Shown piece by piece: positions 18,454 to 47,944 of a stretch of DNA of 64,000 nt. Origin of the DNA: Candidatus Manganitrophus morganii (GTDB taxonomy: Bacteria > Nitrospirota > Nitrospiria > SBBL01 > Manganitrophaceae); contig JAJHOH010000001.1 of the NCBI GenBank assembly GCA_021651055.1, forward strand, positions 744,001 through 808,000. The letters run 5' to 3'. Under the pieces are notes generated by a model that saw only the letters and a list, made by a program, of their open reading frames with translations, was not told where the DNA came from and ran no database searches. Position 1 is the first letter of the stretch. Every line of letters starts with the position of its first letter. Position numbers and translations under genes: made by a program.

Positions 18454-18585
18454 ATCCAGCCAACGCAAATGTTTTTGCAAGGCCGTGATGATCCGACCCG
18501 ACGGTTGGCTTGTCGCTCAAGCAAAATATTTGCTATCGACGGGTAGTAAGCCCGGTCATCACCAAATCAAGGAGGAGTTCGTAAA

Positions 18586-18786
18586 ATGCCAAAAGGTCGT
18601 GTAAAGTGGTTCAACGCCAGCAAAGGTTATGGTTTCATCACCCAGGAAGATGGTAACGACATCTTCGTTCACTTCACTGCCATTCAGGGAGAAGGTTTCA
18701 AGTCTCTCGAAGAAGGACAGGAAGTGACATTTGAGGTCACTACTGGCGCGAAAGGACCACAGGCGGCGAACGTGTCAAAAGCCTAA
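18586..18786 (+). CDS. Cold-shock protein, CspA family
   Basis: 66 residues, the standard family length. RNP1 KGYGFI (13-18) and RNP2 DIFVHF (25-30) are intact, as is the VKWFN start. Single-stranded nucleic-acid binder of the OB fold, RNA chaperone or transcription antiterminator in cold or growth transitions. A strong AAGGAGG lies 10 bases before the ATG. Own promoter (18426-18453) and terminator (18805-18840) make it a monocistronic unit with a long leader. The gene number (cspA, cspC etc.) cannot be told from sequence. Confidence 0.95.
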
Positions 18787-18804
18787 TCACTCCGATTAGC
18801 AAAC

Positions 18805-18840
18805 AAAAAGCCCCAAGGCAAAACCTTGGGGCTTTTTGTT
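18805..18840 (+). terminator. Rho-independent terminator of the cold-shock gene
   Basis: Stem AGCCCCAAGG/CCTTGGGGCT with loop CAAAA, followed by TTTTTG. The AAAAA before the stem may let it work in both directions, for the convergent zinc-ribbon gene as well. Confidence 0.9.
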
Positions 18841-23961: not shown

Positions 23962-23989
23962 CTGGATTCCCGCTTGCGCGGGAATGACG
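23962..23989. repeat. Palindromic repeat, CATTCCCGC family
   Basis: CTGGATTCCCGC TTGC GCGGGAATGACG: arms ATTCCCGC/GCGGGAAT. Same family as the pair at 44521-44588. Intergenic. Confidence 0.75.
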
Positions 23990-24053: not shown

Positions 24054-24695
24054 ATGAACCATCCGCGGAAGATCATCGGCTTATTTCTGATTGTCGTTCT
24101 CGTTCTGGCCGCCGGGGCCACGCGGGCCGACTTTATTGCCGATCAGTACATCACCATCAGCTTGGGAGAGATCGGAGAGAACGCCCAGATCTTTCCGGCC
24201 AAGGTCTACTCCAGACAAAAACAGCTTCGGGTGGAGATCAACAACGCCGGGAGAAGCGTCGTCCACATCTCGCGGGGAGATAAACGGCCGCCGGTTTTCT
24301 GGATGCTGATGCCGAATGAGAAGATGTACGTGGAGACGGTCGGCGGGGAAAACCCGGTCGATCCTTTCTCGCCGAAATCGGGTGTAAAAATCGAGAAGGT
24401 CTTCGTTGCGAAGGAAAACGTGGCAGGCCGTCCGACCAATAAATTTAAGATGACCTGGAGAGACAAAGAGGGAAACAAACGGATCGGGTTCGCCTGGGAG
24501 GCGATCGACCTGAACAACGCCCCGATCCGCCAAGAGTTCTTCAGAGAAGGCGAGCATGTTCTGGTCCAGCTGGCGAACATCCAGGTTCAAAAGCTCGACC
24601 CCGCCCTCTTCGAGGTCCCTTCCGACTACAAGAAAATCACCGCCCCATCCAACGCGCCCGCCGGTCCCCCCGCGCCAAAAACGCCCGGGCCTTAG
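24054..24695 (+). CDS. Periplasmic DUF4412/LolA-like protein
   Basis: 213 residues: signal peptide (about 1-25, ending GATRA), then a single beta-rich domain that begins DFIADQYITI and ends FEVPSDYKKI, followed by a Pro/Ala-rich tail (PSNAPAGPPAPK). The segment VAGRPTNKFKMTW...GFAWEAIDLNNAPIRQE and the closing LFEVPSDY match the half-barrel layout of DUF4412/LolA-type proteins. The C-terminal half of the 45793-47172 protein has the same ending (LFEIPKDYT). Likely a periplasmic lipid or lipoprotein binder; the ligand is unknown. GGAGAG ribosome site. Confidence 0.6.
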   Translation: MNHPRKIIGLFLIVVLVLAAGATRADFIADQYITISLGEIGENAQIFPAKVYSRQKQLRVEINNAGRSVVHISRGDKRPPVFWMLMPNEKMYVETVGGENPVDPFSPKSGVKIEKVFVAKENVAGRPTNKFKMTWRDKEGNKRIGFAWEAIDLNNAPIRQEFFREGEHVLVQLANIQVQKLDPALFEVPSDYKKITAPSNAPAGPPAPKTPGP

Positions 24696-43674: not shown

Positions 43675-44445
43675 CTACGATTTTTCCAATTTTTTGAGAT
43701 AATTCTCAATCCGCCGGGCGTTGGTGCCGACGTCGCTCCTCCCGACGCGGGAGACCGATCGGACGTCGATCCGGCTCCCCTGATCGGCCGGCGTGATCCG
43801 AATCACGACGTCGTCTTTGAACCCGAACCAGAAGGTCGTGTCGGTCGCCTCGATCCGCCCCTCTTCCCGGTTCGCATCGACGATCTGCCACCCCATCGAC
43901 CGCGCCGCCGCGAGCGCCCGCTCGAACGCCTGGTCCGGGGAGACCGGGAGGACAATCGGGCCGAGCTCCGGGTAGCCGCTCTTTTGCTGCGCGGCGATCT
44001 CGGGACCGCCGTATTCGGCCGTATTGGGGGCCCCTTGGCGGACTTTGAGGATCGCGACGAATGCCGGCGGGTTTTCAGTGTCGGTGGTGATGTCGTGAAT
44101 CGGCGGAACGCGCCGCGCCGTCATCATCCACTGCACCGGGATGGCGAAGATTGTGATCCCGATGGTAAAGCCGAGCAGGGCGAGGACGATCTGCCGCTGA
44201 GAGCCGCGGCGTCGCCAGAGGCCGATGAGGGCGATCAGCGAGACGATCGCCGCCGCGGCGCCCCCCATCGCCCCCCATTGGAGAAGGGCGAATCCCGTCC
44301 GGAAATGCCATCGCTCAAAGCGGGCCCCGAACCCCGCCCCGATCGCCATGAGGGCCGAGAGGATGGCGATGGAGAGACCGATCTGGGCGGCGAAGGCCCA
44401 CCCGGTGGACCGGGGGGGTTCAACTTCTGTCGGCTCCATGTTCAT
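43675..44445 (-). CDS. DUF1499 membrane protein
   Basis: 256 residues. Three N-terminal hydrophobic helices (about 17-37, 50-75, 85-110) then a periplasmic or cytosolic DUF1499 domain: IHDITTDTENPPAF, AFERALAAARSMGWQIVDANREEGRIEATDTTFWFGFKDDVVIRI, and SRIDVRSVSRVGRSDVGTNARRI. These are the family hallmarks. Function is not known. No neighbour shares its transcript clearly. Confidence 0.85.
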   Translation of the reverse strand: MNMEPTEVEPPRSTGWAFAAQIGLSIAILSALMAIGAGFGARFERWHFRTGFALLQWGAMGGAAAAIVSLIALIGLWRRRGSQRQIVLALLGFTIGITIFAIPVQWMMTARRVPPIHDITTDTENPPAFVAILKVRQGAPNTAEYGGPEIAAQQKSGYPELGPIVLPVSPDQAFERALAAARSMGWQIVDANREEGRIEATDTTFWFGFKDDVVIRITPADQGSRIDVRSVSRVGRSDVGTNARRIENYLKKLEKS

Positions 44446-44520: not shown

Positions 44521-44588
44521 CGTCATTCCCGCGAAAGCGGGAATCCAGTGCTCTTAAACCTCTGGATGCCCGCTTCCGCGAGCATGAC
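44521..44588. repeat. Pair of CATTCCCGC palindromic repeats in inverted orientation
   Basis: CGTCATTCCCGC-GAAA-GCGGGAATCCAG (44521-44548) and CTGGATGCCCGC-TTCC-GCGAGCATGAC (44562-44588) are inverted copies of one element, also seen singly at 23962-23989. They lie in the 322-base gap 44446-44767, which otherwise holds only a terminator. Confidence 0.8.
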
Positions 44589-44681: not shown

Positions 44682-44715
44682 AAAAAAAAAGAGCCCCCGG
44701 TAAACCGGGGGCTCT
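44682..44715 (-). terminator. Rho-independent terminator of the CsgG/GNA1162 operon
   Basis: Minus-strand stem GAGCCCCCGG/CCGGGGGCTC with a short loop, followed by nine T, about 53 bases after the CsgG-like gene. Confidence 0.9.
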
Positions 44716-44767
44716 CGACAGATCGTCATCTTGGTCGACGATCAAAAGCGATCCGATGATCGCGCGT

Positions 44768-45727
44768 CTACTTCATCACCCTGACAATGTCTCCCACTCT
44801 GAACCCAGTCCCTGATTTGATCTTGACCTCGGAGATGTTGTCCCCTTGATGGGAGGTCAAGACAGCCTCGCCGACCTGGCTCTCCCTTTTTCCGATGACC
44901 CTTCCCGTGTCGGGATCGACGAGATCTTTACCCGCCCGGTAGACGCCGAAAACGGTCCCGGATTGAAGCTTGCTCTTTGATCCGGCCCGGACGATCAACA
45001 CGCCGCTTTCAACCTCGAGCACACGGCCTTGAAAGGGAATGCTGTTGAGTTTATCGATCATCTTCGTCATCGCCTTGGTCATGGCGTCCCGAAGCGCCCC
45101 CTCTCTCAAACCGGCGTCGGCGGACGATTTGGAGCCGAGACCGAACAGCCCTCCGGTCTTCTTGCTGTACTCTCCCATTCCCGAATCGGCCACAAGGCTC
45201 TTTCCGGTCGCGATGTCGACCAACGCATAGTCCACCTGGACGCGCGCCACCTGGGTTTTGCTTTTCGCGACCAGGATGTCGGAGCTCTCCTCCACCTCGG
45301 AGTAGGAGGTCACCGCCCCGGAGATTCTAAAGTCGATCGAATCAAAACCTTCGGCGGCGTTTTTCTTGCCGGATTTCACCGCGCCGGTCTGCTGCATCGC
45401 GATCAACTTCTCTTGATCCCGCATCTCCGCGTCGGTCAATGTGATCGGCTCAAGCCCCGACTTTTTCACGATCGTTCTCAAGATGTCGGTCGCGGCTTCC
45501 CCGACCCCCAGAACCTTGCTCGGCGTCTTGTTTTCAAACGTCATAATCGCGACGTTATACTGTGGGCCGCTATAGTTGAGTCCCGCCTCTTCAAGCTTGC
45601 CCGTCTGCCCGGTCAGACTCACATCATCCTTCACCGCGCCGGTGGTGGTCGGCGAACAGGAGGCTGAAATAAACGCAACCAAACCGGTTAAGACCAAGGA
45701 ATATACTCCGAAACCCTTCGTGCTCAT
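44768..45727 (-). CDS. CsgG/HfaB-like outer-membrane lipoprotein
   Basis: 319 residues from ATG 45727 (CGGAGG upstream). Lipobox ISASC (Cys about 24). The CsgG-type core includes YNVAIMTFENKTPSKVLGVGEAATDILRTIVKKSG, FRISGAVTSYSEVEESS, RVQVDYALVDIATGKSLVADSG and an Ala-rich helix LREGALRDAMTKAMTKMID. A C-terminal beta domain (about 235-319: GRVLEVESGVLIVRAGSKSKLQSGTVFGVYR...) resembles the C-terminal part of FlgT-type proteins. CsgG forms secretion pores for curli, but no curlin is seen; many relatives have envelope roles. Last gene of a three-gene operon. Confidence 0.82.
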   Translation of the reverse strand: MSTKGFGVYSLVLTGLVAFISASCSPTTTGAVKDDVSLTGQTGKLEEAGLNYSGPQYNVAIMTFENKTPSKVLGVGEAATDILRTIVKKSGLEPITLTDAEMRDQEKLIAMQQTGAVKSGKKNAAEGFDSIDFRISGAVTSYSEVEESSDILVAKSKTQVARVQVDYALVDIATGKSLVADSGMGEYSKKTGGLFGLGSKSSADAGLREGALRDAMTKAMTKMIDKLNSIPFQGRVLEVESGVLIVRAGSKSKLQSGTVFGVYRAGKDLVDPDTGRVIGKRESQVGEAVLTSHQGDNISEVKIKSGTGFRVGDIVRVMK

Positions 45728-45792
45728 GTTATAACCTCCGTCATTGTTCAACTGTTGACTCAATCGTCTCCGATGCGCTTGTCCCTGATCTC

Positions 45793-47172
45793 CTATTTCT
45801 TTTCATCCATCAAATCCAAAAAACCGGCCGCCAACGTATAATCTTTCGGAATCTCGAAAAGGGGCGGGGGAGGCGTTGCGAGCTTCAAATTCTTCAGCTC
45901 CATCGTCTGCTTGAACTCCTGATCCTCGAACTCCGATTTGACGATGAAATCTTTGATCTCCTTCGGCTCCCAGATATACCCTTGAAATGTCTTTCCGTCC
46001 GACGCCGTCACATCGACCTGATACTTATCGCACTTCCGCCCATCGACCACCTCTTCCCCCACCTTCTTCTTGGTGATCTTCGGCTCTTTGGCCCCCTTTT
46101 CGCTTTCGACGACCTCGTGCTCCATGTATTTTTTCAGGTCGGGATAAAGCGTATAATTCTTTTTGCTCTTGCCCCGCGAAATCGACGCCGTTTTGAAAAA
46201 TCCGGCCGGCGCTCCTTTCGCTTCATTTTTCATCGCCTCGGTCATGTCGATGTCGGTGCGAAAGTTCTCACCCCCTTTCGCCAATTTTCCGACCATCACC
46301 ATCTGGCGGTTGTCTTTCTTCATGAAAGAGGTCATCACGAGATCGGAGGTAAAATCCCTCTGGCCAAGCTTCATATAGCTGAAAAAGGGATTTCCGGCGG
46401 TCGGCGGCGGCGGAGCGACTGCCGCAGCAACGCGCGGAAGAGCCACCGGAGCGGCCTCCCCCGATCCCCGGCCGGCGGGAAAGTTCCCGAATATTTTATT
46501 GAGCATCGCCTCCGTCTCGGCCTTGAGGTAGCCTCCCGTCGCCTTCTCCAGCAGCTTTCCCCCCACCGCCATCATGAAGGAAGCGTCCGCCGCCTCGCCG
46601 GCCTTCTCCCACTCCTCCAACCGGGGGATTTCGGAGATTCCCGGCACCGATTTCAATCCGCCGATCCCGTCGTCCCGGGAAGAGGCCATCGATCCGAGGC
46701 TTCCCGACTCGTTGCGGATCCCCCGTCCCCCCGCCCAGACGACCTTTCCGGTTTTTGTGTCGACGAGCCGAAACCCGGCCCGGACCCTTTTCTCATTATA
46801 GACGCCGGTCGTAATGTCATCGAAATTCAAGAGATAGCCGTAAAGCACCGCGTCGACGCCGAGGGCGGCGCCGAGCTTCTGCGGCGTCGTCAGCTCCAGC
46901 TGGGAGCCGAGCGTCAGCCCCATTTGATCCTTGAGGATTTGATCGACCTCGTTCAACGGCTTGCTGGCGTAATGCCATTTTTGGATCCGCTTCTCGGCCA
47001 GCTCTCTGACGACGCGGGGGCCCTCCACATCATTGGTGGCGTTATACATCGGCAAGACCGCCACCGTGCGGATCGGGTTCGAGGGATTCGGGGAGATGGT
47101 ATGGACCGGAATCGAGCAGGAGATCAGGAGAAAACAAAAGACGATCAAAAAAGAGAGGTTATTTTTTTTCAT
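45793..47172 (-). CDS. GNA1162-family (DUF799) lipoprotein fused to a DUF4412-like domain
   Basis: 459 residues. Lipobox LLISC (Cys19). Residues about 35-175 match GNA1162: TVAVLPMYNATNDVEGP, LNEVDQILKDQMGLTLGSQL, ALGVDAVLYGYLLNFDD and TGKVVWAGG. A Pro/Ala linker (about 232-262) leads to a second beta-rich domain (about 265-450) with VDGRKCDKYQVDVTASDGKTFQGYIWEPKEI and LFEIPKDYT, typical of DUF4412/LolA-like proteins. The usual GNA1162 protein lacks this second part, so it is a fusion. It precedes the CsgG-like gene, in line with the conserved CsgG/GNA1162 gene pairing known in proteobacteria. Confidence 0.82.
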   Translation of the reverse strand: MKKNNLSFLIVFCFLLISCSIPVHTISPNPSNPIRTVAVLPMYNATNDVEGPRVVRELAEKRIQKWHYASKPLNEVDQILKDQMGLTLGSQLELTTPQKLGAALGVDAVLYGYLLNFDDITTGVYNEKRVRAGFRLVDTKTGKVVWAGGRGIRNESGSLGSMASSRDDGIGGLKSVPGISEIPRLEEWEKAGEAADASFMMAVGGKLLEKATGGYLKAETEAMLNKIFGNFPAGRGSGEAAPVALPRVAAAVAPPPPTAGNPFFSYMKLGQRDFTSDLVMTSFMKKDNRQMVMVGKLAKGGENFRTDIDMTEAMKNEAKGAPAGFFKTASISRGKSKKNYTLYPDLKKYMEHEVVESEKGAKEPKITKKKVGEEVVDGRKCDKYQVDVTASDGKTFQGYIWEPKEIKDFIVKSEFEDQEFKQTMELKNLKLATPPPPLFEIPKDYTLAAGFLDLMDEKK

Positions 47173-47192
47173 TTTTCTATCCCTCGATTGCG

Positions 47193-47855
47193 CTAATTAT
47201 TCAGCCCCGGCCATTTGAGATGAATCTGCTCGATCAACCGATCGGCCAGCTCGGTCCCCGCTTTGCTTAATGCCTCCATTCCGCCGGTCACATCCGAGAC
47301 ATGTCGAGAGACACCGTGTCCCTTTGCAGAGGCAAGCACTTTTCCGTTATCGACACGGATCGCCGTCGCCGTCACATCGGCCAGATACGAGCCGACGGCG
47401 CTTCCGGGGGTTCTCGGCCCTTCCTTCGCCAGCGCTTTTCCCTTGATCACGATTTCCGCGTTGACCTTTTTCGCAATTTCTCTCGCCCCTTTGTCGGTCA
47501 GGTCAGCGACGCGGTAAGCGTTCGATATTTCAAACGTTCCGGTCGTCGCGGAGATATCGACGACTTCGAACCCGTTGTTCAGAAAACTCTCCTTCAGCGT
47601 CGTCTCCGCCGCCGACATATCGACGGTCTCACCCATAAATTCGCTCTGGCCCCACCACCAGAAGACGAAATGTTTCTGGCCGATATTCTGCTCCGCGATC
47701 ATGAACAAAATCCGCGGCTTTCCGGTGCCCCCTTCATCAACAACTTGATCTTGAGCGAAGGCGTCGGACGGGGCAAAAAAGAGCGTCCCGATTAAAACCA
47801 AACTTTTTATGAAGTCCAGAATCGACCTTCTGAAACCGATTTTTAATGGGCTCAT
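47193..47855 (-). CDS. Periplasmic protein of the CsgG/GNA1162 operon
   Basis: 220 residues from ATG 47855 (GGAGAGG upstream; a GTG one codon earlier is possible). Signal peptide ending SDAFA. The mature part KPRILFMIAEQNIGQKHFVFWWWGQ, AETTLKESFLNNGFEVVDIS, AREIAKKVNAEIVIKGKAL, ADVTATAIRVDNGKVLASAKGHG and a final helix LADRLIEQIHLKW resemble the nucleotide-free Rossmann-like half seen in FlgT-middle/LPP20-type and CsgG-type proteins. First gene of the operon, with promoter at 47916-47944. Confidence 0.72.
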   Translation of the reverse strand: MSPLKIGFRRSILDFIKSLVLIGTLFFAPSDAFAQDQVVDEGGTGKPRILFMIAEQNIGQKHFVFWWWGQSEFMGETVDMSAAETTLKESFLNNGFEVVDISATTGTFEISNAYRVADLTDKGAREIAKKVNAEIVIKGKALAKEGPRTPGSAVGSYLADVTATAIRVDNGKVLASAKGHGVSRHVSDVTGGMEALSKAGTELADRLIEQIHLKWPGLNN

Positions 47856-47915
47856 CACCTCTCCAATATTGAAGAATCCCCCATGGCAATATACCTAAGC
47901 ACTTTTGGAGGTCCC

Positions 47916-47944
47916 ATTCTATAGAATAGGAAAACGCGAGTCAA
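47916..47944 (-). promoter_or_regulatory. Promoter of the CsgG/GNA1162 operon
   Basis: Minus-strand TTGACT (47944-47939), 17-base spacer, TAGAAT (47921-47916): five of six matches in each box. Leader about 50 bases. The rest of the 47859-48148 gap shows nothing else of note. Confidence 0.6.

Follow-up and report, generated by a model that had tools for sequence, protein, structure and literature searches.

A conserved Nitrospirota operon encoding GNA1162-DUF4412, CsgG-family and FlgT-related proteins: a candidate outer-membrane scaffold in Candidatus Manganitrophus morganii

Introduction

A compact operon for three exported proteins lies on the minus strand at positions 44768-47944 of a 64,000-nucleotide (nt) stretch of the Candidatus Manganitrophus morganii genome (G000, 4.29 Mb); this whole stretch is called the window here, and positions count from its first letter. 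One of the proteins joins a GNA1162-like domain to DUF4412, and its neighbor belongs to the CsgG family, which raises the question of what such a set does in the cell envelope. The first-pass annotation, made from the letters alone, had suggested a CsgG-type pore with a lipid-binding partner. Our analysis points instead to a periplasmic scaffold that would be anchored in the outer membrane, carry an arm for binding lipid or lipoprotein, and be built from relatives of the flagellar H-ring parts without being tied to the flagellum, a reading to which we assign a probability of about 0.5.

The open-access literature that we searched holds nothing on DUF4412 and no text joining at least three of FlgT, TsaP, CsgG, LpoB, TolB, and GNA1162, and the Manganitrophaceae genome paper (PMC9040806) makes no mention of CsgG, curli, lipoprotein, DUF4412, or flagell.

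Results

Organization and conservation of the operon

The unit comprises three open reading frames (ORFs) in the order gene 1, gene 2, gene 3, with intergenic gaps of 20 nt (gene 1/gene 2) and 65 nt (gene 2/gene 3). With a promoter-like site at one end and a terminator-like stem at the other, it is the clean operon that the first-pass annotation had described. Its features, in the direction of transcription, are as follows (aa, amino acids).

47916..47944, minus: sigma-70-like promoter TTGACT-17-TAGAAT, 10/12 matches, recognized by consensus match only
47193..47858, minus: gene 1, product of 220-221 aa, exported but without a lipobox; longer homologues that start with FlgT_N contain it as their middle part
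45793..47172, minus: gene 2, 459-aa lipoprotein that joins a GNA1162-like domain to DUF4412 (Pfam, alignment)
46708..47070, minus: GNA1162-like domain of gene 2, residues 35-155 (Pfam, 2.2e-11; PDB 4hrv, sequence 6.7e-8, fold 6.7e-6)
45796..46389, minus: DUF4412 half of gene 2, approximately residues 262-459, with a probable fold of the LolA/RseB type (Pfam; fold matches on a low-confidence model)
44768..45727, minus: gene 3, 319-aa lipoprotein in which a CsgG/LpoB-type core is followed by a FlgT_C/TsaP-type C-terminal domain (profile and fold matches)
44771..45040, minus: FlgT_C/TsaP-like C-terminal domain of gene 3, residues 230-319 (LysM/TsaP profile matches; FlgT_C in 7/16)
44689..44716, minus: intrinsic terminator, 12-bp GC-rich stem and T run (stem/T-run scan)

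Promoter-like sites of such quality number 5 in the region against 1.6 expected, and terminator-like sites in general are not enriched over shuffled sequences (5 versus 7.0). Gene 3 starts with ATG, and gene 1 is annotated with a GTG start, though reading by eye shows a better spaced GGAGAGG before the ATG at 47855. The lipobox cysteines of gene 2 (C19) and gene 3 (C24), judged by eye, are invariant in the alignments, whereas gene 1 carries a signal peptide without a lipobox cysteine (also by eye, no signal-peptide program being used); the earlier term "lipoprotein operon" therefore suits genes 2 and 3 but not gene 1. In comparison with two congeners that have readable copies, the ratio of nonsynonymous to synonymous substitution rates (dN/dS) is 0.04-0.20 in every tested part and similar in both halves of gene 2 (DUF4412, 0.13 and 0.20; GNA1162, 0.11 and 0.19), and all three genes are under purifying selection.

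The distribution was determined in two sets, 58 relatives and 198 Nitrospirota genomes; in the phylum set gene 3 was called full-length at E below 1e-75, and genes 2 and 1 were counted on the stretches fetched around gene 3. Full-length gene 3 is present in 16 of the 198 genomes, and gene 2 lies directly upstream of it in all of them (16/16), fused to DUF4412 in 11/16 and unfused in 5/16, with gene 1 present in 7/16. Conserved linkage, a check named beforehand, thus holds for the gene 2-gene 3 pair, and it is stronger and wider than the window alone could show. Among the 58 relatives, full-length gene 3 occurs in four of the six genomes of the genus and extends to three further families. G100 has an additional copy of gene 3 (L110), and the 1.6 kb preceding this copy contain no gene 2. 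The idea that the fusion is confined to the genus was overturned by the phylum survey, and in the gene 3 tree the relatives that surround the Manganitrophus fusion, which are of its own class, are unfused; an old fusion followed by losses is therefore as possible as transfer.

Two loci need care in these counts. In G095, which belongs to another class, the trio (L103) sits on a 4,071-base contig (C125) with a gene 3 that is 82% identical, which suggests transfer or contamination; leaving this genome out, the fusion is found in 10/15. At L021 (CP114561.1), genes 1 and 2 are split by frame breaks, maybe sequencing errors, which we left unmended.

Domain relationships of gene 3

The window gene 3 matches Pfam CsgG weakly (16.2 bits, under the cut-off of 20.8), whereas in its family as a whole 15/16 proteins reach 0.01 or lower (4.4e-23 for the best), with LpoB found in 9/16 and FlgT_C in 7/16. 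Searched by profile against known structures, the C-terminal domain hits a LysM-domain protein (1.2e-8) and TsaP (9.1e-5). CsgG structures match gene 3 at 2.4e-8 with profile A11, a value that leaned partly on row L066, itself a strong CsgG member; with profile A13, which is A11 minus L066, L116, L120, and L121, the match is 0.0023, and hhalign of CsgG against profile A1 gives 3%. The core domains of genes 2 and 3 are related to each other (hhalign 89%, E 2e-6).

The structure model of gene 3 is poor, with a mean predicted local distance difference test (pLDDT) score of 44.7. Searching with this low-confidence model, Foldseek lists an LPHT ring chain, 8z5n_0 (4.3e-9), and FlgT, 3w1e (1.2e-8), and then CsgG (8e-4), so that the E-value of FlgT is lower than that of CsgG by some five orders of magnitude; since 8z5n_0 ties with 3w1e, it would also be FlgT. 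VIA-align superimposes residues 52-319 of gene 3 on residues 134-377 of 8z5n_0 (Z 10.7, 206 aligned, root mean square deviation 4.8), its other rows covering the C-terminal barrel only, and because F1-ATPase N-terminal barrels filled this list, other families are possible for gene 3 by this method.

It is known that the CsgG family includes non-pore members. Between shared anchors, and at the positions that we take to be those of the CsgG membrane hairpins, the first putative hairpin region of gene 3 is 6 residues shorter than in Escherichia coli CsgG and the second is likewise shorter; in the weak model, a strand (177-191) leads through a loop into a helix (200-229), with no return strand. 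CsgF has 0 matches in G000 while the E. coli control is positive, which bears out the earlier remark that the setting is unlike curli. A pore role of gene 3 is not supported beyond family membership.

The GNA1162-DUF4412 fusion in gene 2

Both families proposed for gene 2 score above their Pfam cut-offs, GNA1162-like PF05643 with 44.1 bits (E 2.2e-11, cut-off 25.9) and DUF4412 PF14371 with 27.2 bits (E 3.9e-6, cut-off 21.6), and DUF4412 is matched in 13/13 aligned members. The PDB entry 4hrv found by sequence (6.7e-8) is the solved meningococcal GNA1162, and gene 2 falls under the LpoB equivalog cut-off (TIGR02722, 18.7 bits versus 110.55). Its structure model is weak (mean pLDDT 38.0); by fold, the N-terminal half of this model resembles GNA1162 (Z 8.8) and LpoB (4q6z, Z 8.5), and the tail matches VioE and, repeatedly, RseB (1.8e-3), MucB, LppX, LprG, and LolA/LolA3. 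We take VioE, RseB, MucB, LppX, LprG, and LolA all to belong to one superfamily. The fold matches are consistent despite the weak model, and a LolA/RseB-type fold of the DUF4412 half, anticipated by the first-pass annotation, is probable. By profile, DUF4412 retrieves just one designed protein from the PDB (E 0.26). A convergent LolA-like tail was considered for gene 2 of L022, whose tail gives only DUF3108_like at E 0.12 and no alignment to the fused DUF4412 profile.

The window also contains, as noted earlier, a free copy of this domain:

24054..24695, plus: free-standing DUF4412 protein, 213 aa, outside the operon (Pfam, 6.1e-5) and outside the clade of the fused domain

In the tree, the fused DUF4412 domains group together in a single clade with a support of 100/99, away from eight free copies. 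The free protein was considered as a donor of the fusion, a role to which the tree gives no support (long branch).

Relationship of gene 1 to FlgT

No Pfam family lies above its cut-off in the window gene 1, and FlgT_N was detected by Pfam neither there nor elsewhere in G000, though for the latter search no control genome matched. All four long gene 1 orthologues scanned (L022, L056, L065, and L102) have FlgT_N above the cut-off; it sits before the gene 1-like segment in L022, L056, and L102, and at L065:7689-9611, a distant row of the gene 1 profile A2, FlgO, FlgT_N, and the gene 1 segment succeed one another within a single protein, which is followed by a gene 3-like ORF. The long forms match 9hmf, a lipoprotein chain, at 0.0013. 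Because the long orthologues carry FlgT_N, gene 1 is better called FlgT-related than Rossmann-like, the name it had been given; when the Rossmann fold was tried, profile A2 gave only a 30-residue glutamate mutase match (E 0.65).

Occurrence with and without a flagellum

We used FlgH, the L-ring gene, as the mark of a flagellum. It occurs in 8/16 genomes that bear the gene 2-gene 3 pair and in 115/182 others (Fisher p 0.30); the pair therefore does not require a flagellum, half of its genomes being without FlgH. Gene 1 shows a different distribution. Among the 58 relatives, 40 of which have FlgH, strong gene 1 is found only together with FlgH (9/9; Fisher p 0.026, one-sided and uncorrected for descent), and it is absent from 31 of the 40 FlgH-positive relatives. 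In the phylum set, gene 1 occurs with FlgH in 7/7 genomes, and the two agree in 15/16 pair-bearing genomes. In G000 itself, FlgH lies about 480 kb from the trio (307134 versus 788771), and no flagellar gene was recognized near the trio in the window.

Gene neighborhoods in other lineages

CHASE2-cyclase and GNA1162-beta-helix genes stand upstream of the trio in L022, L056, and L102, and FecR follows gene 3 in L106, L108, and L112. LPP20 genes are found in L022, L056, L105, L106, and L108, and L056 also shares its TPR gene with L105, L106, and L108, so that LPP20 and TPR genes are common to the CHASE2-cyclase and FecR kinds of locus. Because this cluster is common to distant families, it seems that one system with a varying periphery is involved.

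Several details of these loci may be recorded. Upstream of the trio, L022:1863-4604 and L056:3473-6259 encode a protein of more than 900 aa with a GNA1162-like domain and a right-handed beta-helix. The gene order of L105, L106, and L108 is LPP20, TPR (SLH), transglutaminase/CarboxypepD_reg, LPP20, gene 2, gene 3; downstream of this, L106 and L108 also have genes for FecR, Fur-like, and FeoB-like proteins (the last two named by eye). In G148, the region L121:8055-16999 combines genes of the FlgT_N and LPP20-like types with one for a protein of 1393 aa and with ORFs resembling FecR and gene 3.

Other features of the window

Within the window, the trio is isolated, flanked by DUF1499 and DUF2459 genes (Pfam). 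A REP-like palindrome, whose repeat unit has two GC-rich arms, is present as an inverted pair at 44522-44588, in the space that separates the operon terminator from the next gene, and as another copy at 23963-23988, directly before the free DUF4412 gene; the genome contains 16 exact copies, and the reversed control gives 0. ARAGORN places a tRNA-Trp at 44227-44316 (minus strand) inside the DUF1499 gene, which Rfam does not support and which is probably false. Rfam finds a full-length match to the cspA thermoregulator RF01766 at 18504-18839 (plus strand; 100.7 bits, E 1.6e-24).

Discussion

According to the above-described analysis, the operon may encode a scaffold built from lipoproteins of the TolB_N/LpoB/GNA1162/CsgG/FlgT fold class, with genes 2 and 3, whose first domains are related, as the core pair. 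The analysis establishes the genes, their domains, and their linkage, selection, and distribution; that the system sits at the outer membrane, forms a complex, binds a ligand, and takes part in sensing is what we infer. The FlgT_C/TsaP-type beta domain of gene 3 would contact another envelope structure, the LolA/RseB-type domain of gene 2 would probably bind an acyl chain, a lipid, or a mislocalized lipoprotein, and gene 1 would act as a soluble periplasmic partner derived from a FlgT-like protein. To judge by the related loci, the scaffold could serve a wider envelope assembly with LPP20 and TPR proteins and could report to periplasmic sensors such as the CHASE2 cyclase and FecR. Earlier reports describe GNA1162 as resembling TolB and LptE, with a suggested transport role (PMC6497663), and state that FlgP, Lpp20, and FlgT share a fold and that FlgP and FlgT form outer-membrane-associated rings, with 9HMF mentioned (PMC12222027).

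Several observations weigh against this interpretation. Sequence comparisons connect the middle domain represented by gene 1 with neither gene 2 nor gene 3, this domain gave no FlgT_M match, and gene 1 is absent from 9/16 pair-bearing genomes. The LPP20, CHASE2, and FecR neighbors are found in other lineages and not beside the window trio. The congeners G002 (98% complete) and G003 (91%) lack the trio, so it must be dispensable for life in the genus. The fold matches of genes 2 and 3 should be taken as leads, because both structure models are weak.

The main competing explanation is a flagellar one, which we keep because gene 1 is found only with FlgH: the full trio would be a flagellar accessory, an H-ring-like collar in Nitrospirota in which genes 1 and 3 split the job of FlgT. 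FlgT_N in the long gene 1 orthologues, the structural match of gene 3 to FlgT, and the tracking of FlgH by gene 1 in both genome sets would all fit such a collar, yet most FlgH-positive relatives do without strong gene 1, the pair persists in eight genomes without FlgH, and the FlgH of G000 is remote from a trio with no recognized flagellar gene around it; we therefore consider a flagellar role unlikely, if less so than the other alternatives. The same resemblance to FlgT counts against gene 3 being a CsgG-type secretion pore that exports some substrate with gene 2 as a lipid-binding accessory. Family membership in Pfam CsgG and the CsgG matches by profile and fold speak for the pore, but FlgT matches gene 3 far better, both putative hairpin regions are shorter than in E. 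coli CsgG, the weak model has no return strand, and CsgF is missing, which together make the pore distinctly doubtful.

Attention to the tail of gene 2 leads to a further possibility, namely, that this protein is an envelope-stress sensor whose RseB-like domain senses lipid or lipoprotein while GNA1162 and gene 3 relay the signal to a CHASE2 cyclase or FecR. The best matches of the tail include RseB and MucB, in other lineages 6 loci have a CHASE2-cyclase or FecR gene next to the pair or trio, and a Burkholderia FecR-CHASE2 operon controls biofilm, as reported in PMC5192318. However, the window trio has no signaling gene beside it and the tail model is of low confidence, and we hold this proposal to be scarcely more probable than the pore. 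Much the least probable is that the operon is a diverged form of the known CsgG-DUF4810-GNA1162 trio. A row of GNA1162 (DUF799), a middle gene, and CsgG, the outer two standing two genes apart, is described for Neisseria, including the meningococcus, in PMC5282872, and a typical trio occurs in the relative G012 (L061, Pfam), with the same ORF layout in G016 (L062); but our operon has no DUF4810, has another gene order, and carries an extra FlgT_C domain and the DUF4412 fusion, and the typical trio is a separate kind in other genomes of the same order.

The scaffold interpretation thus remains our preferred one. A bolder form of it, which we put forward as speculation and think rather improbable, is an outer-membrane scaffold that forms rings or disks, is related to the H-ring and basal disk, and stands apart from the flagellum in Nitrospirota. 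Its lipoprotein core, made of GNA1162-DUF4412 and the FlgT-like gene 3, would bear a LolA/RseB-type arm that loads or senses lipid, several lineages would have it wired to a CHASE2 cyclase or a FecR protein, and the Manganitrophus trio would be its minimal form. If so, the H-ring and basal disk parts (FlgO, FlgP, and FlgT) would belong to a wider, flagellum-free class of outer-membrane scaffolds; this would bear on the origin of those rings, add a lipid-binding LolA/RseB-type domain to the class, and give a testable setting to DUF4412 and GNA1162, two families without a known role. If not, it remains a well-ordered and conserved lipoprotein operon, so far unstudied, from a manganese-oxidizing lineage.

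Comparison with known systems places the operon between several of them. With the CsgG curli channel it shares the Pfam CsgG family core in gene 3, whereas its genome lacks CsgF, and gene 3 has shorter hairpin regions and bears an extra C-terminal domain. LpoB, the PBP1B activator, has a fold like that of the GNA1162 domain, but gene 2 scores far under the LpoB cut-off; the RseB/LolA/LprG superfamily supplies the likely fold of the DUF4412 half, which here is fused to a GNA1162 lipoprotein. The Vibrio H-ring consists of FlgO, FlgP, and FlgT, according to PMC6375700 and PMC7693769. Common to it and our loci are FlgT_N in long gene 1 orthologues, a FlgT_C-type domain in the gene 3 family, and, in related loci, LPP20 (FlgP-type) and one FlgO-FlgT_N protein; here, however, two genes share the FlgT-like parts between them, the gene 3 product is a lipoprotein, no LPP20 adjoins the window trio, and half of the pair genomes are without FlgH. 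In the meningococcal GNA1162-DUF4810-CsgG trio, GNA1162-like and CsgG-family lipoproteins adjoin as they do here, whereas Pfam finds no DUF4810 in the three operon proteins, just 65 nt separate genes 2 and 3, and the DUF4412 fusion, the FlgT_C-type tail, and the gene order are different; Nitrospirota genomes contain examples of either kind. The window operon shares parts with both the H-ring and the meningococcal trio and equals neither.

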